A model generated the notes under the pieces. It was given only the letters and a program-made list of their open reading frames with translations, did not search any database and was not told where the DNA came from. From positions 1-64,000 of the forward strand of contig NZ_JAGFNP010000013.1 of the NCBI RefSeq assembly GCF_017592475.1: a DNA stretch of 64,000 bases, in the 5' to 3' direction. The translations under genes and the position numbers were made by a program. This DNA comes from Glycomyces niveus (GTDB taxonomy: Bacteria; Actinomycetota; Actinomycetes; Mycobacteriales; Micromonosporaceae). Every line of letters begins with the position of its first letter. The first letter of the stretch is position 1. Shown piece by piece: positions 1,329 through 25,268 of this stretch.

Positions 1329-4300
1329 ATGGCCTGGATGGAAATCCCGAAGAGCCGCAGGCGGATGCTCATCGGCGGCGCCGGCGTGTTCGCCGGTACC
1401 GCCGCCGCGACCGCACTCGACCCGTTCACCGCAGCCGCCCAAGCCCAGCAGATGCGTGTCGACGTGTCCGGGTCGACCGGCGCCGCCCAGGCCGGGGAAG
1501 CATGGAATCCCGATTCGTCGTATACGACGACGGACACCGGCGACGGCTCCTACACGGTTCCCATGCTGAACTCCGACGTGCCGGATGTCAGTGTCGAGCG
1601 CGTCCCCGCCTCGCAGAACGATGAGAGGCGCGACATCTACTACATGGTCAGCACGACGATGCATCTCAGCCCGGGCGCACCGATCATGAAGTCGTACGAC
1701 CTCGTCAACTGGGAGATCGTGAGCTACGCGTTCGACCGCCTCGACATCAGTGATGCCGCGTCCTTGCGCAACGGCTCGAACTCCTACGGGCAGGGGCAGT
1801 GGGCGTCGTCGATCCGCTTCCACGAAGGCACCTTCTACGTGCTCATCAATTCGCTGAACCTCGGCGGCGCCTTCCTCTACCGCACCGACGACATCGAGAA
1901 CGGAGCGTGGACGAAGACTGCGTTCGGTCGCGGCTTCCACGACCCATCGCTCTTCTTCGACGACGCCAACGGCGGAACGCCGTACATCATCTACGGTGGC
2001 GTCAGCGCGGTGCGGCTCAACCCGACGCTGACAGCGGTCGAGCAGGATTTCGCTGACTTCATCCGGCGCAGCGACTACGCAAGCGAGCCGTACGTCGGCA
2101 GCGATGGGATCTTCGAGGGCGCCCAAGTGTGGTTTATCGACGGCTATTACTACGTGGTGATGATCACCTGGCGCAGCAACGGTCGACAGGTCGTCATGTT
2201 CCGCTCGACCGAACTGCTCGGACGCCTCGCGGACACCCCAGTGGCTTACGAGTCCTATGGAGCGCTGGCCTCGAACGGATTCGCGCAAGGCAGCCTGGTG
2301 CCCATCTCGAATGAAGCGGGCGACGACGACTGGTACGGCTTCTTCTTCCGCGACTCGTATCCGGTGGGTCGCATCCCTGCGCTGATCCCGGCGACCTGGA
2401 GCGACGGGTGGCCGACCTTCGGCGACAACGGCGTCGTGCCGGTCGACGGCGCCTTCGAGAAGCCGATCAGGCTCACCCCGGAGCAGGAGCGCTTCGAGCG
2501 GCTCAAGAGCATCGTCGTGTCCGACGACTTCGACAACGATGCACCGCACCGCGCCTACCAGGACGAGCAGTGGACGCTGCCGACACCGCCCGACATCGAT
2601 GAGGAACTGGTCGGGGTCGAACTCTTCGGCAATCCCGGCGTCGAGTCCGGCAACACCGAGGGCTGGATCGCCAACGACGGTGCGACGCTCTCGACGACGA
2701 CGGACGCGCACAGCGGCTCGACGGCTATCGCGGTCACCGGGAGGAGCGCCACGGGATCAGGGCCGGCGCAAGACGTCACCGGCAAGGTGCAGCACGGCGT
2801 CACGTACGACATCTCGGCTTGGGTCAAATACGAGAACCCCGCAAGCCCGGCGACCAAGCCGTTCATCATCACCGCCCGGTACGGCGGCGGCAGCACGACC
2901 TACGCCAACCTCACGCCCCAGACGGTGGTCCCCCGCGGGACCTGGGGCAAGGTGTCCGGGTCGTTCACGATTCCTGCATCCCAGGCGCTCTCCGACGTGC
3001 GCATCTTTATCGAGACTCCCTGGGTGAGCAATCCGTCGACCGACCCCGACACGCACCTCATGGACTACAAGGTCGACGACGTGTCACTCATCGGGAGGGC
3101 TGACGCCGTCGAGCTGCCGCATCCCGATGAGATCGCCCCGAACGGGTCGAACCTCGATCTGGCCTGGGAGTGGAACCACACGCCCGACAACCGGTACTGG
3201 TCGCTCACCGACCGCGAGGGGTGGTTGCGGTTGACGGCCGGCAAGGTCGTGACCGGTGCGTACACGCACCGCGACTCCGGTGGCGAGCTCACCTGGCTGG
3301 AAGAAGCGCGCAACACGCTCTCGCAGCGCTCCTTCGGACCTCGGCAGTCGGCCGAGACGAAGCTTGACTTCTCGGGCATGAACGACGGCGACGTCGCCGG
3401 ACTAGCTGCATTCGGCCAAGACTTCTCGTATGTCGCGGTCCAGCGCGTGAACGGGGAGAACACGGTGGGGGTCGTCCATCGCGGCCGGCCCTTCACTGCG
3501 CCGGTCGACCAAGCGGCGATCGAGAGTTTTCTGCCTGGAGCCACTGCGGAACTCGGGGATGCCACGGAGGTGCACCTCAAGGCGGATCTGGACTTCACCC
3601 GGAGCGAGGGGCAGCTCTTCACGACCTTCTATTGCAGTCTGGACGGGATCGATTGGACCCAGCTCGGCAACACCGTCGGACCGCTCGAGTTCGGCGGATC
3701 GATCCACTTCATGGGACACCGGGTCGCACTGTTCAACTACGCGACCCAGCAGACCGGCGGCCACGTCGACTTCGACCACTTCCTGCTGAGCGACACCCTG
3801 ACATCGCAGAACCAGCCGCTCGACAAGGGCGACCTGGAGGCAGCGATCGCGTACGCCGAATCACTGGGCTCGGGGGACTATCCCCCCGAAGCGTGGGCGG
3901 CGATGCTCGACGCGCTCGCCGAGGCGCGAACAGTGGCGGCAGGTGTGGTCGGCACGCAGAACCAGATCGATGCCCCCGAGCGAGCGCTCAGCTATGCGCT
4001 CGCCCGCCTCGGAACGTTGAAGGGGCCGGACCCCACAGCCTGGTACGTGCTGGTGAACCGCAACAGTGGCAAGGCCCTGGACGTCAGCGGCGTGTCCACT
4101 GCAGACGGAGCCCGGCTCCATCAGTGGACCCGCACGAACGCCCAGAACCAGCAGTTCCAGTTCGTGGATGCCGGCGGCGGCTACTACAAGATCAAGGCGC
4201 GGCACTCGGGCAAGGTGCTCGACGTGTCCGGCTGGTCGACCGCCGACGGTGCCGGCATCTGCCAGTGGACCGACCACGGCGGGGCCAACCAGCAGTTCCG

Positions 4301-4454
4301 GCTGGTCGACTCCGGCGGCGGCTACATGCGCTTGATCAACCGCAACAGCAACAAGGCGGTCGAGGTCCAGAACGCGGCGACCAACGCCGGCGCCATCGTC
4401 GTGCAGTACAGCGACTGGGGCGGGGCCAACCAGCAATGGCAACTCGTCCGCTGA
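1329..4454 (+). CDS. Tat-secreted GH43 xylosidase/arabinofuranosidase, multidomain with CBM13
   Basis: 1041 residues. AAGGAG sits 6 bases before the ATG. The N-terminus has a twin-arginine signal (SRRRMLIGGAG followed by an Ala-rich h-region). Residues ~55-390 form a five-bladed GH43 module (YYMVSTTMHLSPGAPIMKS, GQGQWASSIRFHEGTFYV, FHDPSLFFDD). Residues ~393-825 are the beta-sandwich typical of GH43 xylosidases (starting VVSDDFD, core WEWNHTPDNRYWSL), but a CBM4/9/22-like domain (~434-587, NPGVESGN to VDDVSLIG) interrupts it. A FIVAR-like helical linker (~828-897) and a CBM13 trefoil (~903-1041) follow. Likely cleaves xylose or arabinose from arabinoxylan oligosaccharides outside the cell. 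Family is clear, exact specificity is not. Confidence 0.9.
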   Translation: MAWMEIPKSRRRMLIGGAGVFAGTAAATALDPFTAAAQAQQMRVDVSGSTGAAQAGEAWNPDSSYTTTDTGDGSYTVPMLNSDVPDVSVERVPASQNDERRDIYYMVSTTMHLSPGAPIMKSYDLVNWEIVSYAFDRLDISDAASLRNGSNSYGQGQWASSIRFHEGTFYVLINSLNLGGAFLYRTDDIENGAWTKTAFGRGFHDPSLFFDDANGGTPYIIYGGVSAVRLNPTLTAVEQDFADFIRRSDYASEPYVGSDGIFEGAQVWFIDGYYYVVMITWRSNGRQVVMFRSTELLGRLADTPVAYESYGALASNGFAQGSLVPISNEAGDDDWYGFFFRDSYPVGRIPALIPATWSDGWPTFGDNGVVPVDGAFEKPIRLTPEQERFERLKSIVVSDDFDNDAPHRAYQDEQWTLPTPPDIDEELVGVELFGNPGVESGNTEGWIANDGATLSTTTDAHSGSTAIAVTGRSATGSGPAQDVTGKVQHGVTYDISAWVKYENPASPATKPFIITARYGGGSTTYANLTPQTVVPRGTWGKVSGSFTIPASQALSDVRIFIETPWVSNPSTDPDTHLMDYKVDDVSLIGRADAVELPHPDEIAPNGSNLDLAWEWNHTPDNRYWSLTDREGWLRLTAGKVVTGAYTHRDSGGELTWLEEARNTLSQRSFGPRQSAETKLDFSGMNDGDVAGLAAFGQDFSYVAVQRVNGENTVGVVHRGRPFTAPVDQAAIESFLPGATAELGDATEVHLKADLDFTRSEGQLFTTFYCSLDGIDWTQLGNTVGPLEFGGSIHFMGHRVALFNYATQQTGGHVDFDHFLLSDTLTSQNQPLDKGDLEAAIAYAESLGSGDYPPEAWAAMLDALAEARTVAAGVVGTQNQIDAPERALSYALARLGTLKGPDPTAWYVLVNRNSGKALDVSGVSTADGARLHQWTRTNAQNQQFQFVDAGGGYYKIKARHSGKVLDVSGWSTADGAGICQWTDHGGANQQFRLVDSGGGYMRLINRNSNKAVEVQNAATNAGAIVVQYSDWGGANQQWQLVR

Positions 4455-15779: not shown

Positions 15780-16682
15780 TCAGCCCTTGATAGCGCCGGT
15801 GAGGACGCCGGAGGTGAAGTAGCGCTGGAGGAACGGATAGACGATCAGGATCGGGAGCGTCGCCAGGACGATCACCGCCATCTGGAGGGTGACGCCGGGC
15901 GGCGGGGGCTGATCGGGGGAGACCACTGCGCCCGGGATGGCGACGCCCGCCAGGACGTACTGCTGGAGCACGACCTGGATGGGCCACTTCTCGGCGTCGT
16001 TGATGTACAGCAGGGCGTTGAAGTAGGTGTTCCAGTAGCCGACCGCGTAGAACAGGCCCATCACGGCGAGCACCGGCTTCGACAGCGGCAGCACGATCTG
16101 GAGGAAGATCCGCCACTCGCCGGCCCCGTCGATCCGCGCGGCCTCGATCAGCTCTTCGGGCAGTCCTTGGAAGAAGTTCCTGATGACGATCATGTTGAAC
16201 GCCGAGATGAGACCCGGGATGATCAACGACCAGGTCGAGTCCAGGAGCCCGAGGTACTTGATGAGCATGAAGTTCGGGATGATCCCCGCCCCGAAGAACA
16301 TGGTCGCGAGGACCATGATCAGCACCGCCTTGGCGCCCGGGACCTGGCGAGTGCGGGCCAGGCCCCAGGCGAGCATCGAGGTCGCGGCAAGGGACAGCAG
16401 CGTGCCGACGACCGTGATGAACAGCGAGTTCAGCAGACCCTGGGTGACCGTGCCGCCGTTGAAGATCGCGCGGTACGCGTCCAGCGAGAACTCGGTCGGG
16501 AACACCACTCCGGCGCGGGCCTGGGACGGGGCGGCGAAGCTCATCGCGATGACGTAGACCAGCGGGTAGATCATGGTGATCACGATCAGCACGATCACGA
16601 TCGCCTTGACCGCCCGGACCCAGATCGAGGGCGGGCTCATCCACGGCGGGATGCCGGTGCGCCCCTTGGCGAGTGTCATCAT
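15780..16682 (-). CDS. Sugar ABC transporter permease (LplC/YtcP type)
   Basis: 300 residues from ATG 16682 (the next codon, 16679, is also ATG). GGAGAGGGG lies 8-10 bases upstream inside the preceding gene, whose stop overlaps the start (TGATG), so the two are translationally coupled. Six hydrophobic helices are evident, and the cytoplasmic EAA loop reads PEELIEAARIDGAGEWRIFLQIVLPLSKP. This CUT1 permease type pairs with large binding proteins for oligosaccharides. Third gene of a binding-protein/permease/permease operon with no ATPase gene. Confidence 0.92.
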   Translation of the reverse strand: MMTLAKGRTGIPPWMSPPSIWVRAVKAIVIVLIVITMIYPLVYVIAMSFAAPSQARAGVVFPTEFSLDAYRAIFNGGTVTQGLLNSLFITVVGTLLSLAATSMLAWGLARTRQVPGAKAVLIMVLATMFFGAGIIPNFMLIKYLGLLDSTWSLIIPGLISAFNMIVIRNFFQGLPEELIEAARIDGAGEWRIFLQIVLPLSKPVLAVMGLFYAVGYWNTYFNALLYINDAEKWPIQVVLQQYVLAGVAIPGAVVSPDQPPPPGVTLQMAVIVLATLPILIVYPFLQRYFTSGVLTGAIKG

Positions 16683-17656
16683 CAGAAGATCCCCTCTCCA
16701 CCCATGCGCTTCGCGAGGCGGTTCGCCGAGAGCACCAGAACGGTGCCGATGACGCCCTTGAGCAGGCCCGCCGCAGTCGCGACCCCCCACTGGCCGCCGA
16801 GCACGCCGCGGAAGTAGACGAACGTGTCCAGCACCTGCGCGGCTTCGGCACCGACCATGGGCTGCTGCAGCAAGAGCTGTTCGAAGCCGACCGTGAGGAT
16901 CGACCCGATGTTGAGGATGAGCAGGAGCGTCGCGACCGGGACCAGCGCCGGCAACGTGATGTGCCAGGTGCGCTGCCACGGCGTCGCGCCGTCGATCGCC
17001 GCCGCCTCGTAACGGTCGGACGGAATGCCCGCGATCGCCGCGAAGAAGATGATCGTGCCCCAACCGACGTCCTTCCACATGCCCTGGGCCACAACAAGAA
17101 GCTTGAAGGTGTCGGCGTTCGTCATCGCGTCGAACCCCGGCATCCCCATCCCGTCGAGGACACCCGCGACGAGACCGCCGCCACCGAGGACCTGCTGCCA
17201 CACCGAGATCACGATGACCCACGACAGGAAGTGCGGCAGATAGACGATCGTCTGCACGAACCGCTTCACCTTGTCGGAGAGCAGCGAGTTGAGCAGCAGC
17301 GCGAGCGCGATCGGGGCCGGGAACGCGAAGACCAGCTGCAACACCGCGATGATGAGCGTGTTGCGCAGGGCCTGCAGGATTTCCGGATCGGTCCAGATCG
17401 CGTTGAAGTTCGCGAAGCCCACCCACGGCGAGCCCTCGATCCCGCGGAACGGCGAGTACTCCTGGAACGCGATCACGTTGCCCGCCATGGGCACATACGC
17501 GAACACCAGGAAGAACAGCGCCCCGGGGACGATGAACGTGTAGGACCAGCGCTCGCGCCAGACGCGCTGACGCAGTGTGGTCTTGCGCTTGGGCGCGGAA
17601 GGCCCCGAGGCCCGCGCGGTGCGGGTCTCGGGGCGTGCGGCGGTTTTCACGCTCAC
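16682..17656 (-). CDS. Sugar ABC transporter permease (LplB type)
   Basis: 324 residues from GTG 17656, whose GTGA overlaps the stop of the binding-protein gene by 4 bases; a GTG at 17650 is an alternative. After a basic N-terminus come six membrane helices (SYTFIVPGALFFLVFAYVP onward) and an EAA loop (PSDRYEAAAIDGATPWQRTWHITLPAL). Forms the transmembrane channel with the downstream permease. The LplB/LplC pair usually imports oligosaccharides released by secreted glycan-degrading enzymes. Confidence 0.92.
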   Translation of the reverse strand: MSVKTAARPETRTARASGPSAPKRKTTLRQRVWRERWSYTFIVPGALFFLVFAYVPMAGNVIAFQEYSPFRGIEGSPWVGFANFNAIWTDPEILQALRNTLIIAVLQLVFAFPAPIALALLLNSLLSDKVKRFVQTIVYLPHFLSWVIVISVWQQVLGGGGLVAGVLDGMGMPGFDAMTNADTFKLLVVAQGMWKDVGWGTIIFFAAIAGIPSDRYEAAAIDGATPWQRTWHITLPALVPVATLLLILNIGSILTVGFEQLLLQQPMVGAEAAQVLDTFVYFRGVLGGQWGVATAAGLLKGVIGTVLVLSANRLAKRMGGEGIF

Positions 17657-19320
17657 TTGCCGGCGTCCTTGAGGGCCTGGGTGTACTCGTCCTTGACCTG
17701 CGTGCCGCCCTGCGACATGTAGTTGGAGACGAACGACTCCAGGTCGTCGATGCTCTCGCGGCCGGTGATGACCCCGCTCTCGAAGTCCGTCCACAGCTGC
17801 TTGAGCTGCGCGCCCTTCGTGATGAACGTGGGGGACGCGCCTTCGAGGCCTTCGAGCGGGCGCACGATGGAGTTCTGCGCCATGGACTCCATGACCGCGA
17901 CGAACGAGTCCGCCCAGGGAGCGGCGTTCGGGTGGATCCGGTACGAGTTGTCACCGGACGTGACCCCGACGTACTGGACGCCCATCTCAGGCAGGTTGTC
18001 GGCGTTGGGGATCGGGATGCCGTGCTCGTCGAAGTCGAAGTTGCGGCCCTCGATGCCCGAGTTGACGAACAGGTGCTCCTCCGATCCGTACGGGGCCGAG
18101 AAGTAGTCCAGGACGTTGAGGATCTGGGTCAAGCGCTCCTCGTCCTCGGCCGCCGCGGCCGAAACGCAGGTCGAGCGGCCGTAGGGCACGTTGCGCACCA
18201 CGAGCTGGGCGGAGCCGTCGAAGCCGGGCATGTCGAAGAAGTCGAACTTCGCGCCGGGCAGGTCCGCCTCCCACTGCGACAGGCCGGCCGCGCCGATCGC
18301 CCCGCCGACCGCGTCGTAGCGGATCGCGGCGCCGGAGACGATGTCGGTCGGGGTGGGGGACATGGAGACCGGGTCGAAGATGCCCTCGGCCCAGGCGCGG
18401 GCGAGCCATTCGAGCATGAGCTTGTAGTTCTCGGTCTGGGTGATGTGGACCAGGTCGCCGTCGGCGTTGTGCTGCCATTCGGGGCCGGTCTTGAACAGCC
18501 GCTGGAACATCGACGCGGTCCCGGGGTGGGCGTCGTACTTGTTGAGCCCGTACACCTTCTGGCCGCCGGGGCCCGTGCCGAGCGCGGAGACCTCCTTGAG
18601 CATGGTGAACAGCTGCTCGGCGTCCTTCGGCGAGCGTCCGATGGAGGTCTGGTCGACCAGGTCGGCGCGCATCACCGGCAGGTTCGTGAGCGCCCAGACG
18701 GTCGAGGGGATCTGGTAGATGCGGCCGTCCTTGAGGCTGGCCTTCCAGATCTCCTCTTTACGTGCTGCCAGGTTGGGCCATTTCAGGATGTTGTCGCCCG
18801 ACAGCGTCTCGGAGAGGTCGGCGAACGCGCCGTCGCGGATGCCCTGCAGGTTCACCGCCGACTGGTCGTTCACGAAGACCAGGTCCGGGACCTCGCCTGA
18901 AGCGAGCATCGTGGCGAACTTCTGGTCGAACACCGGCTGCGGCACGAACTGCGGCTCGAAGCTCACGCCGAGGCGGGCGTTGAGCTCCTGCCAGTACGGG
19001 TTCTCGTCCAAGGGCTTCGAGGGGTCGCCCCAGGTGAGCTGGAAGCTCGTGACCGTCCCGCCGGAGGCGGGCTCGCGGTTGACGGACTTGAAGTACGTCT
19101 GCACCTGCTCGGTGTAGACGTCCTCCATGCCCTCGGTCTCGGTGGCGTAGAACGGCTGCACGTCGAGCTCGGGCGCGGGCTGGAACGTGGGCAGGTCGTA
19201 GTCGCCGCCGGCGCTGCCGCCGACGTTCTCCGAGCAACCGGCGGCGGTCGCGCCGACCGCGGCAGCGGCTCCGGCGGCGCCGACCGCGCCGAGGAACTTG
19301 CGGCGAGTGAAATCGACCAT
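17653..19320 (-). CDS. Extracellular sugar-binding lipoprotein (LplA type, Tat signal)
   Basis: 555 residues; AAGGAGG lies 7 bases before the ATG. The N-terminus combines a twin-arginine motif (TRRKFLG) with a lipobox (ATAAGC), so it is exported folded and lipid-anchored. The body is a large type-1 solute-binding protein (LTWGDPSKPLDENPYWQELNARLG, GEVPDLVFVNDQ, YFSAPYGSEEHLFVNSGIEG), longer than maltose-binding types and typical of binders of long uronic or neutral oligosaccharides. Heads the importer operon; expression probably set by the dyads upstream. Ligand not identifiable. Confidence 0.9.
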   Translation of the reverse strand: MVDFTRRKFLGAVGAAGAAAAVGATAAGCSENVGGSAGGDYDLPTFQPAPELDVQPFYATETEGMEDVYTEQVQTYFKSVNREPASGGTVTSFQLTWGDPSKPLDENPYWQELNARLGVSFEPQFVPQPVFDQKFATMLASGEVPDLVFVNDQSAVNLQGIRDGAFADLSETLSGDNILKWPNLAARKEEIWKASLKDGRIYQIPSTVWALTNLPVMRADLVDQTSIGRSPKDAEQLFTMLKEVSALGTGPGGQKVYGLNKYDAHPGTASMFQRLFKTGPEWQHNADGDLVHITQTENYKLMLEWLARAWAEGIFDPVSMSPTPTDIVSGAAIRYDAVGGAIGAAGLSQWEADLPGAKFDFFDMPGFDGSAQLVVRNVPYGRSTCVSAAAAEDEERLTQILNVLDYFSAPYGSEEHLFVNSGIEGRNFDFDEHGIPIPNADNLPEMGVQYVGVTSGDNSYRIHPNAAPWADSFVAVMESMAQNSIVRPLEGLEGASPTFITKGAQLKQLWTDFESGVITGRESIDDLESFVSNYMSQGGTQVKDEYTQALKDAGK

Positions 19321-19335
19321 GAGGGGCCTCCTTAA

Positions 19336-19468
19336 ATCAACGTTGATGCAGGGGTGAGGGATGTGGCGGGTGTGAAAGTCATGGCGGCGTCCGGTGGCGG
19401 TGGCCTGCCGGGTACTGCTCCAGGTCGCCGGGGAGATAACGGTATCATCGACCATGGAAATGAGTCAA
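19336..19468 (-). promoter_or_regulatory. Promoter and LacI-type dyads of the sugar-ABC operon
   Basis: Minus strand: -35 TTGACT (19468-19463), 18-bp spacer, -10 TACCGT (19444-19439). The -10 lies inside the dyad GATAACGGTATC (19435-19446). A second, perfect palindrome ATCAACGTTGAT (19336-19347) sits in the leader 15 bases before the ATG. Both have the central CG of LacI-family operators. The rest of the 300-bp gap down to 19622 holds a third GATAACGG copy at 19601 and no gene. Confidence 0.7.
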
Positions 19469-19622: not shown

Positions 19623-20630
19623 TCAGGCCTGCCTCCACAGCGTCTCGTGGTCCACGCGGTGCAGCAGCGGCTCGCCCGCGACGTACCGCTCGGCGTCCTC
19701 CACCATGAACTGGCCCATCCGGGAGAGCTCGTTGCCGTGGGAGCCGGCCACATGCGGGGTGAGGAAGACGTTCGGGAGGTCGTAGAGCGGCGAGTGCGCC
19801 GGGAGCGGCTCGGGGTGGGTCACGTCGATGACCGCCGAGAGCCGCCCGCTGAGCACCTCGGCGGTGAGCGCATCGGTGTCGACGAGCTTCCCGCGGGCCG
19901 TGTTCACCACGACGGTGCCGTCCCGCATGAGGGCCAGGCGTTCGGCGTTGATGAGATGCTCGGTCTCGGCGAGGTCGGGGGCGTGGACGGTGACCACGTC
20001 GGCGCGGGCCACGAGCTCGTCGAGCGACACGAGGGCCGCGCCGAGCGCGGCCGCTTCGGTCTCCTCCACGTACGGGTCGGCGAGCAGGACCGTGAAGTCG
20101 AAGGGGCGCAGCAGTTCCACCACGCGCCGCCCGATTTTCGAGGCGCCGATGATCCCGATGACGCGGCCGAAGTTGCCGACCTCGGGGTGGATGTAGCCGA
20201 GCGTGAAGGTCCGGTCCTTGCGGAAGTCCTCGCGCAGCTGGAAGATGCCCTTGCCCGCCATGAGGATCGAGGCGAGCGTGTACTCGGCGACCGGCAGCGC
20301 GTTCGCGCCGGCCGCGCTCGAGACGGCCAGGCCGCGCTCCCAGCCGCTCTTGCCGATGATCCATTTGACCGTTCCGGCGGCGTGCAGCACCGCTTTGAGA
20401 CTCGGCGCCCCGGCCAGTGCCTCGTCGCTCAGGTGCGGCGCGCCCCAACTGGAGACGATGACCTCGGCCTCGGCCAGGGCCGCCTTCGCGGCGGGCTCGG
20501 TGAAGTCCCGGGCGATGAGGTCGGGGTCGAAGTCGAGCACGGCCGCCAGGCGCCGCATGAGCGGTTCGGGGAAGAGCTGGTGGAGGAACACGGGGTCCAT
20601 GGCCAGGAGGGCTCGCGGTCGGTCTGCCAC
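19623..20630 (-). CDS. D-2-hydroxyacid dehydrogenase
   Basis: 335 residues from GTG 20630, with AGGA about 7 bases upstream. The NAD-binding motif reads GIIGASKIG, where most relatives have GxG-x-G-x-x-G with glycine in place of the Ser-Lys part. The catalytic Arg (NTARGKLVD), Glu (THPEPLP) and His (TPHVAGS) are all present. Reduces 2-ketoacids or oxidises D-2-hydroxyacids in the cytosol; substrate unknown. Its place between a sugar importer and a secreted lyase-like protein, with similar promoter elements, suggests use on a breakdown product of the imported glycan. Confidence 0.88.
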   Translation of the reverse strand: MADRPRALLAMDPVFLHQLFPEPLMRRLAAVLDFDPDLIARDFTEPAAKAALAEAEVIVSSWGAPHLSDEALAGAPSLKAVLHAAGTVKWIIGKSGWERGLAVSSAAGANALPVAEYTLASILMAGKGIFQLREDFRKDRTFTLGYIHPEVGNFGRVIGIIGASKIGRRVVELLRPFDFTVLLADPYVEETEAAALGAALVSLDELVARADVVTVHAPDLAETEHLINAERLALMRDGTVVVNTARGKLVDTDALTAEVLSGRLSAVIDVTHPEPLPAHSPLYDLPNVFLTPHVAGSHGNELSRMGQFMVEDAERYVAGEPLLHRVDHETLWRQA

Positions 20631-21002
20631 TCGGGGTCCTTCGGGGTCGCCGGATAGATATCGGTTTCTAAGTTAGATCTCGATCCGCAGTTTGTCGAGA
20701 CCTCTGCATCGATCAATCCCGATCGGTCGTGATGCCGAGTCCCGAAGATCATCATGATGATACTGGTAGACAAGGTGATAGAACGAAATAACGATTCGGT
20801 AACGTGTGGTGACGAGGCTGCAGCCGCCTCGGGACCTAGTGGATAACGTTATCTGTCTGAGCCTTGATTCTCGTCTTCGCAACCGCTATCGTCCGCATAG
20901 ACGGACACCGATATGCAGCTCCCGGCCCCGCGGCCGGCCGCGCCGGCGTCCGCATCCCGCATCGGCGGACCCGGAAGGCCCCCCTTCGAAAGGACTCCTG
21001 CA
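20631..21002. promoter_or_regulatory. Divergent control region with LacI-type operator
   Basis: An AT-rich 372-bp region between divergent genes. Towards the lyase gene lies the perfect palindrome GATAACGTTATC (20842-20853), followed by TTGATT and, 16 bp later, CTATCG as possible -35/-10. Towards the dehydrogenase lies a minus-strand TTAGAAACCGATATCTA (20669-20653), sharing CGGTTTCTA with the copy at 19606. No gene is seen inside. Confidence 0.6.
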
Positions 21003-24000
21003 ATGACGCAAGTCGGGCATCGAACGCGGCCGCGCCTCACAGCGCTGACCGCCGCGCTCGCCGCAGGGATCGCGATGGTCGCGGTCCCGCCTGCGGCGCA
21101 GGCCGAGACGAGCTACGACGACCTGCTCACCGCGCACGTCGTCGAGATCAACGAGACCGTGAGCGACGCCGGGTTCGTGCACCCCGGCGTGGGCCTCTCG
21201 GCCGACGACCTCCGCAACGCCCAGGCCATGGTCCGCTCGAACCAGGAGCCTTGGGCCTCCTACTTCGACGCGATGACCCAGGTGACGCCGTGGGCCGCAC
21301 CGGGTTACACGGTCGACAACATGGTGCGCGGCAAACCGGACGTGCCCGTCACTGACACGTTCACCCAGGGCGGCATGCGCAACCGCCTCACCCGCGACTC
21401 CTTCGGCGTGCTCACCCAGGCGCTCATGTGGACGATGACCGGCGACGAGGTCTACCGCAAGGGCGCCATCATGGGCCTGCGCACCTGGTCGAACATGAAG
21501 GCCGACGGGTACGCGTACTTCCCGGACGCGCACGTCCACACCGGCAAGCCGCTCTCGCAGTTCCTCATGGCCGCCGAGATCATCCGCGCCACCGAACCGG
21601 TCGCCGACGACACCCCCGGCACGCACGACGGCTACAACGTCGAGTGGAGCGCCGAAGACGACGCGAAGCTGCTCGGCAACTTCGCGGAGCCGATCGTGAA
21701 CGTCTTCAACTTCTCCAACGAGAAGTGGATGAACCAGCACAACTTCGGGCTGTACGGCCGCATCGCGACCGCCATCTACGCCGACGACGCCGAGGGCTAC
21801 GCCAAGGGCGTCGAGTGGTTCACCGTGAACTCGACCTTCGACGACTACACGAGCGGCAGCATGGCCGCCCAGTTCCCGGTGATCGAGGCCGACGACCCGC
21901 TCAACCCGTACGGCTACGACTTCGTGCAGCTGCGGGAGATGGGCCGCGACCAGGCGCACGCCGAATGCAACATCGACAACTTCGCCGCGCTCGCGCGCTT
22001 CCTCGATGTGCAGGGCACCAAGGTCGACCCCGTCGCCGGCACGGTCTCCACGGCCGACGACGCCGTGACCGCGTACGGCTTCCTCGGGAACCGCCTGCTC
22101 AAGGGCGCCGACGCCTTCGCGGGCTTCATGATGGGCGACTGGACGCCCTATGTGGACGAGCGCAACACGGGCGGGGCCATCTCCCAGGCCTACCGCGGCC
22201 GCATCTTCAACGCCCTCTCCGAGCTGTACTACCAGTACACGTACGTCGAAGGCGTCGACGTCGAGACCGAGGCCCCCTGGCTGGCCGAGCTCCACGCGCG
22301 CATGGACGGCCCGCTCTACCAGTACGGCACCGGCACCGCGAACTTCTGGGCACCGGGCGACAAGAGCATCGAATACTGGGTGGCCTTCCCGCAGGAGATC
22401 GCCGGCACCGAACCGCGCCCGGCCGCCGACACGGCCCTGACCTTCGGCAACTACGGGCTCGCGCTCGACGACGGCACCGCGATCACCACCGAGGACGGCC
22501 ACGCCTTCGCCCGCGCCACCGCCGACGCCGACGGCACCACCAGCGTCATCAGCCGCGTCATGTTCCCGGCCAACAGCCGCATGGGCGTGCTCGTGCGCAC
22601 CGACGGGCCCGCGACCCTCGAGGTCCTCGACAAGGAGGAGCCGAACGCCGCCAACCCGGACGAGACCGCCGCGAAGATCATGGCGAGCATCGAACTGCCT
22701 GACACGCAAGGCGAATGGCGGTACGTCACCTACCCGGCGGGCGGCCTCAACACCCACTTCTTCCGTGTGAAGGGCGACGGCGCGACCGTCGACCTCGACA
22801 AGCTCATCTTCAACGCCCAGACCGCGCTCACCCCGCCGGCCTTCGAGCAGACCCGCGACCGCTACTACCTGTGGGCCGGCAACGAGGCGAGCTTCGACCT
22901 CTCGGCCGCCGACACGGGCGGATCGGTCGCGTACACCGCCGCCGGCCTGCCTCGCGGCGCGACCCTCGACGCCGCGACCGGCACGCTCACCTGGAAGCCG
23001 GGCGACCGCCAGCGCGGCGTCCACCAAGTGCAGGTCGTCGCCGACGACGGCGAGTCGATCACGGCCCGCACCTTCGAACTGTCGGTCGCCCGCAACCGCC
23101 CCAAGATGATCGAGGCGGCCGTGGCCGACGGCGTCGACGCCGAGGCCGTCTACACCACCGTCACCCGCGAGCCCTACGAAGCCGCACTCCATGCGACGAG
23201 GGACGCCTCCGAGTCGGGCACCGACGCGGAGTTCCGCACCGCCTTCGAATCGCTGCTCGACGCAATCGAGAACCTCGATCTCCTCAGCGCGCGACTCGCA
23301 GACGGCACGCTCGACTACACCGGCATGGCCGTCCCGCAAGGCATCTCGACCGGCGGGCTGAACGCCCTCGCCGACGGCGACAACACCAGCAGCTTCGGCG
23401 ACGTGCGCCTGGGCTCGGTCACGCTCGACTTCGGCACCCGCTACCGGGTCGCGGTCGACGAGTTCGACTTCCGGGCCCGGTTCTCGTTCCCGATGCGCTC
23501 CGAGGGCACCAACGTGTACGGCTCGAACGACGGGCTGTCGTGGACGCTCCTGACCGAGCGGGACACCGCGAACACCAACGACTGGGAGTCGATCCCGGTC
23601 GTCGCCGACCAGCGCGGCAAGGAGTGGCGCTACCTCAAGCTCCAGGTCGACGACCCGGGCGTCCCGATCGACCCGGCCTACCCGGGCCTGTGGTCCATCG
23701 GCGAGTTCCGCATCGGCGGCGACCGCGTCGAGGTCCCGGGCACGATCGACACGCTGACCGTGACCTCGCCGGACGCGTTGGCGGGCAGGGTGACCGCGGG
23801 CGACACCGCCCAGGTCGCCTTCACCAGCCCGGAGCCGATCAGCGACGTGACCGCCGCGATCGGCGGCCAGAACATTCCGGTGACCAGCACTGACGGCCTG
23901 TCGTGGACCGGCTCGGTCGAGCTCGGTTCGCTCAACGGCGGCGGCCGCCTCGGCCTCACCGTGGACCACACCACGGCTGACGGCGACCAGGCCGCCACCG

Positions 24001-25268
24001 TGCACGGCTCGACCGACGGCACCGCCCTGTACGGCTCGGACGAAAGCAATCTCGTCGACCTCGCCGACGCGCAAGTGATCAAAGTGGACGGGTCGATCGA
24101 CGCAACGAAAGCCGCGCAGTCCGCGTTGATGCTCGACGGCAACGCCGCCACCTTCAGCGACGTGGCCGCCGTCGACGGCGAGTTCTACCTCATCTGGGAC
24201 TTCGGCGAAGGCGCCGAGGCCACGGTGGACCGCGCCGACTTCCTGGCCCGCCAGGACAACAACGGCCTGGTCCGCATGGACGACCAGGTTCTCCAGGGCT
24301 CCAACGACCTCCGGAACTGGACGACCCTGACCGACCCGACGTTCAAGACGCTCGCCTGGCAGAACCTCCCGTCGCAGAGCGACGAAGGCTTCCGCTACGT
24401 TCGCATCGCGAACAACGTCCTCATCGACATCGCGGAACTCCGGCTCTTCGGCGCCGTCGCCTACGACCTCGACCCGATCCTCGCGCGGGCCGACGCGGTC
24501 GACCTGGCCGCCCACTCGCGCGGCTCGGCGATCCTGTTCACCCGCGAAGTGGAGGCCGTGCGAGCGGCCGCCGCCGAGGCCGGCGCCGACGAGTCCGCGC
24601 TCGCGCAGCGCCTCCTCGACGCCTGGTCCCTGCTCGAGGACGCCGCGACCACCGCCGCAGCGCCCCTCGACCAGGCGTGGGTCACCGCCAGCTCGGCATC
24701 CTGGGACGGCACCAAGAACGCGGCCGCCAACGGCTGGGCCATGTTCGACGGCAACACCGGCACGTTCACCGACACGACCACGAAGAACGGCTGGGTCTCG
24801 GTGATCCCGAGCGACGGCACCGCCTTCACGGTCGAGGCCGTGAAGTACCACCCCCGCGGCGGAGCGGTCCCCCGCGCCAACAACGTGTCCCTCCAGGGCT
24901 CGAACGACGGCGGCGCGACCTGGACCACCTTCGCCTCCACGGGCATCGCGGTCGCGGGCTGGAACACGGTCACCCTGTCCGCACCGGTCCGATACGAGGC
25001 CCTGCGCATCAGCGGCACCGACGGGTACACCAACTTCGCCGAAGTGCAGTTCCTCGTCTCAGCGATCGACAAGACCGGCCTCGACCTCTACCTCACCGAA
25101 GCCGGGGCCCTGTCCGAATCCGGCTGGACCGCCGACTCCTGGACCGCCTTCACCACCGCCCGCGACGCCGCCCAAGCAATCGCGAACGACAAGGGCGCCA
25201 CCCAAGAAGAAGTCGACGAAGCAACCGACGCCCTCGCGGCGGCCACCGCCGGCCTCACCAAGGCATAA
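21003..25268 (+). CDS. Very large secreted lyase-like protein, alginate-lyase superfamily, with three discoidin domains
   Basis: 1421 residues from ATG 21003, with AAAGGA upstream and a signal peptide ending VPPAAQA. Residues ~50-480 are helical, with blocks expected of an alginate-lyase-type (alpha/alpha) toroid: HTGKPLSQFLMAAEIIR, WMNQHNFGLYGRIATAIYADD and GRDQAHAECNIDNFAALARF. A beta-rich region follows, then an Ig/cadherin-like domain (~620-700), and three F5/8-type (discoidin) domains (~777-910, ~1025-1160, ~1225-1352) interleaved with FIVAR-like helical bundles (last ~1358-1421). There is no LPxTG anchor. Probably cleaves an acidic polysaccharide by beta-elimination; the substrate and even the catalytic residues are inferred. 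Confidence 0.72.
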   Translation: MTQVGHRTRPRLTALTAALAAGIAMVAVPPAAQAETSYDDLLTAHVVEINETVSDAGFVHPGVGLSADDLRNAQAMVRSNQEPWASYFDAMTQVTPWAAPGYTVDNMVRGKPDVPVTDTFTQGGMRNRLTRDSFGVLTQALMWTMTGDEVYRKGAIMGLRTWSNMKADGYAYFPDAHVHTGKPLSQFLMAAEIIRATEPVADDTPGTHDGYNVEWSAEDDAKLLGNFAEPIVNVFNFSNEKWMNQHNFGLYGRIATAIYADDAEGYAKGVEWFTVNSTFDDYTSGSMAAQFPVIEADDPLNPYGYDFVQLREMGRDQAHAECNIDNFAALARFLDVQGTKVDPVAGTVSTADDAVTAYGFLGNRLLKGADAFAGFMMGDWTPYVDERNTGGAISQAYRGRIFNALSELYYQYTYVEGVDVETEAPWLAELHARMDGPLYQYGTGTANFWAPGDKSIEYWVAFPQEIAGTEPRPAADTALTFGNYGLALDDGTAITTEDGHAFARATADADGTTSVISRVMFPANSRMGVLVRTDGPATLEVLDKEEPNAANPDETAAKIMASIELPDTQGEWRYVTYPAGGLNTHFFRVKGDGATVDLDKLIFNAQTALTPPAFEQTRDRYYLWAGNEASFDLSAADTGGSVAYTAAGLPRGATLDAATGTLTWKPGDRQRGVHQVQVVADDGESITARTFELSVARNRPKMIEAAVADGVDAEAVYTTVTREPYEAALHATRDASESGTDAEFRTAFESLLDAIENLDLLSARLADGTLDYTGMAVPQGISTGGLNALADGDNTSSFGDVRLGSVTLDFGTRYRVAVDEFDFRARFSFPMRSEGTNVYGSNDGLSWTLLTERDTANTNDWESIPVVADQRGKEWRYLKLQVDDPGVPIDPAYPGLWSIGEFRIGGDRVEVPGTIDTLTVTSPDALAGRVTAGDTAQVAFTSPEPISDVTAAIGGQNIPVTSTDGLSWTGSVELGSLNGGGRLGLTVDHTTADGDQAATVHGSTDGTALYGSDESNLVDLADAQVIKVDGSIDATKAAQSALMLDGNAATFSDVAAVDGEFYLIWDFGEGAEATVDRADFLARQDNNGLVRMDDQVLQGSNDLRNWTTLTDPTFKTLAWQNLPSQSDEGFRYVRIANNVLIDIAELRLFGAVAYDLDPILARADAVDLAAHSRGSAILFTREVEAVRAAAAEAGADESALAQRLLDAWSLLEDAATTAAAPLDQAWVTASSASWDGTKNAAANGWAMFDGNTGTFTDTTTKNGWVSVIPSDGTAFTVEAVKYHPRGGAVPRANNVSLQGSNDGGATWTTFASTGIAVAGWNTVTLSAPVRYEALRISGTDGYTNFAEVQFLVSAIDKTGLDLYLTEAGALSESGWTADSWTAFTTARDAAQAIANDKGATQEEVDEATDALAAATAGLTKA

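Follow-up and report, generated by a model that had tools for sequence, protein, structure and literature searches.

LYA1, a probable secreted modular enzyme of the alginate-lyase superfamily, and its candidate operator-marked regulon in Glycomyces

Among the polysaccharide lyases (PL) with an (alpha/alpha) toroid fold, the PL5 enzyme A1-III has the catalytic set Asn/His/Arg/Tyr, and the hallmark of PL17 is a C-terminal antiparallel beta domain with a catalytic His. Here we analyse LYA1, a 1421-residue protein encoded in a 64,000-nucleotide stretch of Glycomyces niveus DNA (contig NZ_JAGFNP010000013.1, positions 1 to 64,000; hereafter the window), which we tentatively read as a secreted modular polysaccharide-cleaving enzyme, an atypical lyase most likely acting on an acidic plant glycan. 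Tyr and His are common to the toroid lyases listed in Table 4 of PMC12088678, most of which have Asn as the neutralising residue and some Asp, Glu or Arg instead. In BoPL38 (PL38), His243 and Tyr298 act as bases or acid (PMC13169297); by analogy with related lyases, Asn242 would neutralise the carboxylate.

PL17 Alg17c and PL5 A1-III are the best fold matches to LYA1, but share only 13% and 11% identity with it over the aligned residues. BoPL38 (8bdq) has in common with LYA1 the toroid fold, a His at the base position and the Arg of ExxR, yet it has Asn242 and Tyr298 where LYA1, in the sequence register, has Gln and His, and it gives no convincing sequence match. The same superfamily branch as LYA1 includes proteins annotated as 'alginate lyase family' or RICIN-domain proteins from Actinomycetota and from plasmids of Bacillota and Pseudomonadota, here called RDxxH (NWD/NWE) proteins; these occur in nine of the 34 loci compared and beside the same operator, but have Trp-Asp or Trp-Glu instead of Gln-His, and some carry RicinB instead of the CBM35-like and discoidin domains. 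Searches of open-licence papers turned up no characterised member of this group, to which L036-L041 and L045, among others, belong. In gene content and logic the LYA1 locus resembles the Bifidobacterium AAfase/GAfase clusters described in PMC10688797 (a GH39 and a GH36 glycoside hydrolase (GH), LacI, a solute-binding protein and two permeases), but its secreted enzyme is a toroid rather than a GH39, and a 2-hydroxyacid dehydrogenase is added.

Architecture, fold and family placement of LYA1

The LYA1 gene, called from its open frame, ribosome site and relatives, runs on the forward strand from an ATG at 21003, with AAAGGA resembling a ribosome site upstream, to a stop at 25268, in a window that maps to contig C5 of the 5.26-Mb genome. 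An earlier note on this stretch had given the protein its correct length and had begun the feature at 20631, immediately beyond the end of the divergent dehydrogenase gene (19623-20630, reverse strand); positions 20631-21002 are the promoter region common to both genes and are non-coding for LYA1. A 1321-residue antisense frame (20886-24851, reverse strand) is a by-product of G+C-rich coding DNA and was not counted as a gene. Residues 1-34 (21003-21104) form, by eye, a classical signal peptide, as had been proposed, with a basic start, a hydrophobic core and a cleavage point between AVPPAAQA and ETS, so that the mature protein begins at residue 35.

The region from about residue 35 to 475 (21105-22427) is predicted to adopt the (alpha/alpha) toroid fold of the alginate-lyase superfamily, which upholds the fold suggested in the earlier note. 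An AlphaFold2 model built from an alignment of 21 relatives reached a mean pLDDT (predicted local distance difference test) of 85.9 and a pTM (predicted template modelling score) of 0.88. With VIA-align the toroid matched PL17 Alg17c (4ok2; Z 23.4, root-mean-square deviation (rmsd) 3.0, 296 aligned residues), A1-III (Z 22.0), 3nnb (Z 21.7) and BoPL38 (Z 21.6), and Foldseek returned PL17, PL38, PL39, PL8 and PL40 lyases with modest template modelling (TM) scores of at most 0.42 on the query. Several of the best VIA-align alignments end between model residues 438 and 454 and a few extend to 481-552; those of the best PL17 matches end at about the toroid end, where LYA1 continues with a CBM35-like beta-sandwich (about residues 476-605; 22428-22817) that had been missed earlier. 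Taken alone, this domain (model residues 442-569, protein residues 476-603) matches the CBM35 of CsxA, solved with glucuronic acid (2vzr; Z 12.5, rmsd 2.4, 111 aligned residues), and CBM6 modules score nearly as high (Z 11.7-11.9); Foldseek matches to the last modelled domain were carbohydrate-binding modules, again with modest TM-scores.

Beyond this module lie, all on the forward strand, an Ig-like He_PIG domain (residues 621-695; 22863-23087; PF05345, 44.3 bits), three discoidin-like stretches located by a Pfam scan at a lax limit (E up to 1), and a FIVAR domain (residues 1373-1418; 25119-25256; PF07554, 29.0 bits in the whole protein and 34.9 as a piece, cut-off 29.2). PF00754 scores 58.2 bits on whole LYA1, above its cut-off of 28.2, whereas each discoidin-like stretch scanned alone stays below threshold: the first (about residues 785-884; 23355-23654) reaches 22.7 bits, the second (about residues 1039-1135; 24117-24407) 22.0 bits, and the third (residues 1228-1343; 24684-25031), the best PF00754 stretch in the whole protein, registers only with PF22633, scoring 26.5 against a cut-off of 27.8 bits. 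The third stretch was also the only part matched when LYA1 alone was searched by sequence against the PDB (2yb7, carbohydrate binding family 6, E 1.1e-5). The Ig-like domain named in the earlier note is therefore present and its three discoidin domains are discernible, if individually weak, while the FIVAR bundles that it reported come down to one Pfam domain. The sole NCBIfam match to LYA1 was with a protease model; it was partial, lay at the C-terminal end and scored far below the cut-off.

Sequence comparisons were made with a profile of LYA1-type relatives (A1, 21 rows), with an RDxxH profile (A3) of RicinB-bearing Glycomyces proteins and of Streptomyces proteins, from which L062 and L074 were omitted owing to stop codons in one coordinate set, and with a PL38 model of 14 rows, whose motif count is no evidence since they were chosen for carrying the PL38 motif. 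Streptomyces L057 and L058, close relatives of BoPL38 (E 7.9e-64), served as a yardstick, and 3nfv groups with PL38 by sequence. The PF05426 alginate lyase family, suggested earlier as a check together with PL38, stayed below its cut-off of 22.2 bits (15.9 for whole LYA1, 19.4 for the catalytic part, 21.3 in the genome search), with a weak match in all 21 rows of the relatives' alignment. The PL38 model matched 0 of 68 A1-type proteins (duplicates included), the reverse search of the A1 model gave no hit among strong PL38 matches, and the A1 profile against the PDB at E up to 10 retrieved no PL38 chain and one chance match. In phmmer searches PL38 was reached from the pair of Streptomyces PL38 proteins but not from either of two RDQxH proteins. 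The A3 model, in contrast, matched all 68 A1-type proteins (duplicates again counted), and A1 aligned to A3 with a probability of 99.8% over 326 columns in hhalign. This mutual match, with the lack of a convincing PL38 match and a shared ExxRDxxH motif (28 of 30 sister NWD/NWE proteins checked), places LYA1 by sequence in the RDxxH branch, distinct from PL38, and membership of any known lyase family is not established. Searches of the open-licence literature on the RDxxH clade, PL38, PF05426, Glycomyces lyases, glucuronan lyase, PL27 and PL43-45 yielded no paper recognised as dealing with this clade. The proposal of a new or little-studied lyase specificity thus stands in so far as no characterised specificity can be assigned to the toroid; that the chemistry is that of a lyase is itself only inferred.

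Motif conservation was assessed on 41 distinct catalytic domains, obtained from 65 matches after removal of 23 duplicates and one short piece, the three window copies having been excluded beforehand. Both blocks singled out earlier, WMNQHNFGLYG (residues 242-252) and GRDQAHAECN (residues 314-323), are present, and within and beyond them Asn244-Gln245-His246 (21732-21740), ExxRDxAH (Glu312, Arg315, Asp316 and His319; 21936-21959) and Tyr397-Arg-Gly-Arg are each invariant in 41/41; toroid tyrosines 266, 358, 397, 409 and 412 are likewise invariant. The earlier description of GRDQ-H and NxH as known lyase motifs did not hold for BoPL38, which has NNH and R-4x-H-Y, as do the Streptomyces PL38 rows selected for that motif. 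The register between the two was set by a global hidden Markov model (HMM) alignment of A1 plus A3 against PL38 (96%), from which L059 was also left out, and it pairs Gln245 with Asn242, His246 with His243 and Arg315 with Arg292; a gap of two residues then brings His319 opposite Tyr298. A Gly stands 19 residues after the His319-type His in 37 of 41 A1 rows and 12 of 13 A3 rows, and 19 residues after the catalytic Tyr in 14/14 PL38 rows, BoPL38 and 3nfv; this spacing agrees with the global register in setting His319 at the Tyr298 position. Of the His/Asn/Tyr set on which the earlier note would have judged the cleft, the His is accordingly kept, and in the best register Asn is replaced by Gln and Tyr by His. 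Where LYA1-type proteins have Gln-His, 20 of 30 A3-type rows show Trp-Asp and seven Trp-Glu; the other three could not be read under an N-W-x search pattern that admitted only some residues. A PL38 comparison model made for helix boundaries (pLDDT 66, below 50 at 301-318 across the motif) was not used in the argument.

The operator and the neighbouring genes

The region between the dehydrogenase and LYA1 genes contains a LacI-type operator, GATAACGTTATC (20842-20853), with one other exact copy genome-wide (at C28:237546), and, by eye, a promoter-like TTGATT-17-TATCGT (20864-20892, forward strand). Nine aligned loci share parts of this region: the promoter-like element is largely conserved, and the palindrome is exact in the window and has at least one mismatch in others. 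A degenerate form of the operator, GATAWCGWTATC, has six sites in the 5.26-Mb genome, each adjoining LYA1, one of its paralogues LYA2 and LYA3 or an RDQxH relative: one before LYA1, one in the gap between LYA2 and a GH36 gene, two before LYA3, and two between a second dehydrogenase and the RDQxH enzyme. The reversed control pattern has one site in this genome.

Across 22 genomes of the genus we counted 48 operator sites, spread over 15 genomes, against one control site, and a simple base-frequency estimate predicts 0.08 per genome. Sites were absent from the four enzyme-less genomes and also from three that bear the enzyme (G398, G402 and G408). Distances were taken to 80 of 87 A1-model matches (all 35 strong and 45 of 52 weaker ones, termed RDQxH relatives without a one-by-one check, seven weak pieces being omitted); 37 of the 48 sites have a match, strong or weak, no more than 700 bases away and 44 have one within 3 kb, while 20 of the 35 full-length matches have an operator within 700 bases and 15 do not. 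Among the four remaining sites, one coincides with the start called for a LacI gene that is transcribed divergently from a solute-binding protein gene, and another precedes a set of LacI, permease, solute-binding protein and GH2 genes, assigned by similarity to earlier clusters. From its placement in the genomes, the pattern GATAWCGWTATC appears to mark a Glycomyces regulon that unites the enzyme and its paralogues with RDQxH enzymes and with genes for the 2-hydroxyacid dehydrogenase, GH36, the importer and LacI. The regulon is newly seen and probably digests an acidic plant polysaccharide; the operator would be bound by the clustered LacI protein. Operator-like GATATCGATATC was seen at G397:C32:185870 and G403:C35:117438, on contigs without a known regulon gene.

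In the window itself, all on the reverse strand, LYA1 is preceded by the divergent D-2-hydroxyacid dehydrogenase gene (PF02826, E 1.5e-47), whose cluster occurs in 15 of the 34 loci, by an ATP-binding cassette (ABC) importer solute-binding protein (17653-19455; PF13416 at 21.7 bits, below the cut-off of 27), and by two permeases of PF00528 whose starts are not settled (16682-17794, E 1.1e-15; 15780-16670, E 4.6e-11). Searched against the PDB at E up to 0.01, the solute-binding protein matched only two AlgQ1 sequences, weakly (E 0.002), and a second solute-binding protein resembles AlgQ1, AlgQ2 and other such proteins. Besides the dehydrogenase and the RDxxH relatives, the recurrent partners among the 34 loci are LacI (13), solute-binding proteins (13) and GH36 (12); GH28, GH43, GH51 and GH2 genes were each seen at two or three loci, the GH2 falling between beta-glucuronidase and beta-galactosidase types. 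These loci are not independent (L048 and L049 are one gene, as are L035 and L052, and several are clipped by contig ends); their genes came from a simple GC-based caller, which missed the permeases of the window, and family scans covered some members of the neighbour clusters, none of them from the c5 'permease' cluster. Against the NCBIfam beta-L-arabinopyranosidase model, with a cut-off of 1100 bits, four of six GH36 proteins scored 529-580 bits and two 91-92 bits, and the PDB relatives of one GH36 are alpha-galactosidases.

KduI-type genes (PF04962), found in 13 of 22 genomes, were not used as a pathway partner: G399, G401, G403, G408 and G414 have the enzyme without PF04962, a family that also contains IolB. 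About 17 kb upstream of LYA1, at 1329-4454, the window also encodes a GH43 protein with CBM4_9, GH43_C2 and RicinB domains.

Possible chemistry and substrate

The reading that we favour, with a confidence somewhat short of even, is that LYA1 belongs to the RDxxH branch as an atypical secreted lyase. The type of importer and the CBM35-like domain suggest a uronate-directed lyase, as do the dehydrogenase, which handles acids, and the retained Arg and His. On this reading LYA1 would most likely cut an acidic plant glycan, perhaps of arabinogalactan type, beside a uronic acid (the substrate being a guess from the neighbours), with Arg315 and Gln245 holding and neutralising the carboxylate, His246 and His319 taking the base and acid roles that usually fall to His and Tyr, and the CBM35-like and discoidin-like domains holding the substrate. 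The product would be imported through the ABC importer with its AlgQ1-like binding protein and finished intracellularly by GH36 and the D-2-hydroxyacid dehydrogenase, the whole pathway being under one LacI-type repressor. A gum-arabic rhamnose-glucuronic acid (Rha-GlcA) lyase function of the kind in PL27 and PL42 is possible for LYA1. A more specific version, which we regard as doubtful, makes LYA1 a new toroid family, with Tyr replaced by His and Asn by Gln, in a GATAWCGWTATC regulon for acidic plant glycan in which GH36 rather than GH88/GH105 would trim a possibly unsaturated uronic or an arabinopyranosyl end inside the cell and the dehydrogenase would reduce the resulting alpha-keto acid.

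Several points weigh against a lyase. The usual step following a lyase is GH88/105, and PF07470 was found in 0 of 22 Glycomyces genomes and in 3 of 14 controls. The nearest curated model of the GH36 neighbour is a neutral-sugar hydrolase, against which it scores 541 bits, below the cut-off of 1100. The canonical Tyr and Asn appear, from the alignments, not to be conserved in the LYA1 family, although another Tyr could substitute in the cleft. The alignment that sets the register is forced global and only 11% identical, and the local hhalign match of A1 to PL38 (60%) covers only 33 columns, at a different place. Human dermatan sulfate epimerase has the same fold (VIA-align Z 17.9), and its presence in the match list means that the toroid is not confined to lyases. 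The sister NWD/NWE branch, finally, has an acid at the lyase His position and may therefore not eliminate at all.

The loss of Tyr and Asn, the lack of GH88/105 and the presence of a GH36 speak for a non-lyase, possibly a hydrolase. In its fullest form, which we consider rather unlikely, this alternative makes LYA1 a glycoside hydrolase on a toroid scaffold, in a branch that has lost elimination, which releases a disaccharide whose terminal sugar is removed by the intracellular GH36, as proposed for the GH39 AAfase. The partner set does resemble the Bifidobacterium AAfase cluster of PMC10688797 with GH39 exchanged for LYA1. The absence of GH88/105 from all 22 genomes fits as well, and so does the base position of the sister proteins, which is Asp or Glu in 27 of the 30 examined (the other three unread). 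However, that position is His rather than Asp/Glu in the LYA1 family itself, no catalytic carboxylate pair has been identified in LYA1, and a 2-hydroxyacid dehydrogenase with an AlgQ-like importer better suits an acid product. It is improbable that LYA1 is an ordinary PL5, PL17 or PL38 lyase on alginate or glucuronan and that the apparent loss of Tyr reflects a wrong register: PL17, PL5 and PL38 are the top fold matches, the weak PF05426 match runs through every row and the other invariant toroid tyrosines are in place, but PL38 fails in both search directions, PF05426 stays under its cut-off, and NQH with ExxRDxAH replaces NNH with R-4x-H-Y in all 41 domains. Least probable is a catalytically dead toroid in a chiefly glycan-binding or surface protein, since at least five accessory domains and altered key residues are outweighed by motif residues invariant in 41/41 across four named bacterial families, which speaks for selection on an active site, and by a regulon shared with enzymes and an importer.

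If the more specific version, with GH36 in the place of GH88/GH105, is true, this would be a lyase pathway lacking the textbook second step. An invariant clade without the Tyr and Asn would allow a test of whether elimination depends on that set or the fold has taken on another chemistry, and the operator provides a ready list of partner genes, making substrate and pathway genetically testable in one culturable genus.

Distribution of the enzyme

A full-length A1 match is present in 18 of the 22 genomes of the genus. In a sample of 396 genomes of the phylum, nine had any A1-model match and two the full-length type, namely the window's own genome and one of genus g8. Relatives in named genomes amount to 28 loci at 41-79% identity, far beyond chance; a pattern-based scan that detects close relatives found them in Glycomyces, four Streptomyces, and one each of Promicromonospora, Microbacterium, Herbiconiux and Agromyces. 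Phage records gave no match to the enzyme. In the phylogenetic tree three Streptomyces rows fall within the seven-row group of the window copy (support 100/99) and the Promicromonospora row pairs with a Glycomyces row (99/97) inside the Glycomyces clade, placements that suggest transfer; three long branches are of unsure position.

The genome of the window has three copies, LYA1 on C5 and two on C28, at 212 kb (64% identity) and 233 kb (42%). Adjoining the 64% paralogue (L048, C28 192-212 kb) are a BNR-repeat protein that we read as GH74-like, three GH5 genes, of which two carry CBM46, together with a ROK regulator and another GH36. Xyloglucan, considered as a general substrate from the GH5-CBM46 and BNR-repeat genes near this paralogue, was rejected, GH5-CBM46 being present in only 2 of 34 loci and the operator in that stretch lying only between the paralogue and GH36.

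Relatives of the NWD/RDQxH type also occur on plasmids of Rahnella, Burkholderia and Paenibacillus. The Lactobacillus helveticus plasmid pLH1 carries a truncated relative of the LYA1 catalytic domain (L147:4998-5744), which has NQH and EMGRDVGH and stands beside transposase and recombinase genes.

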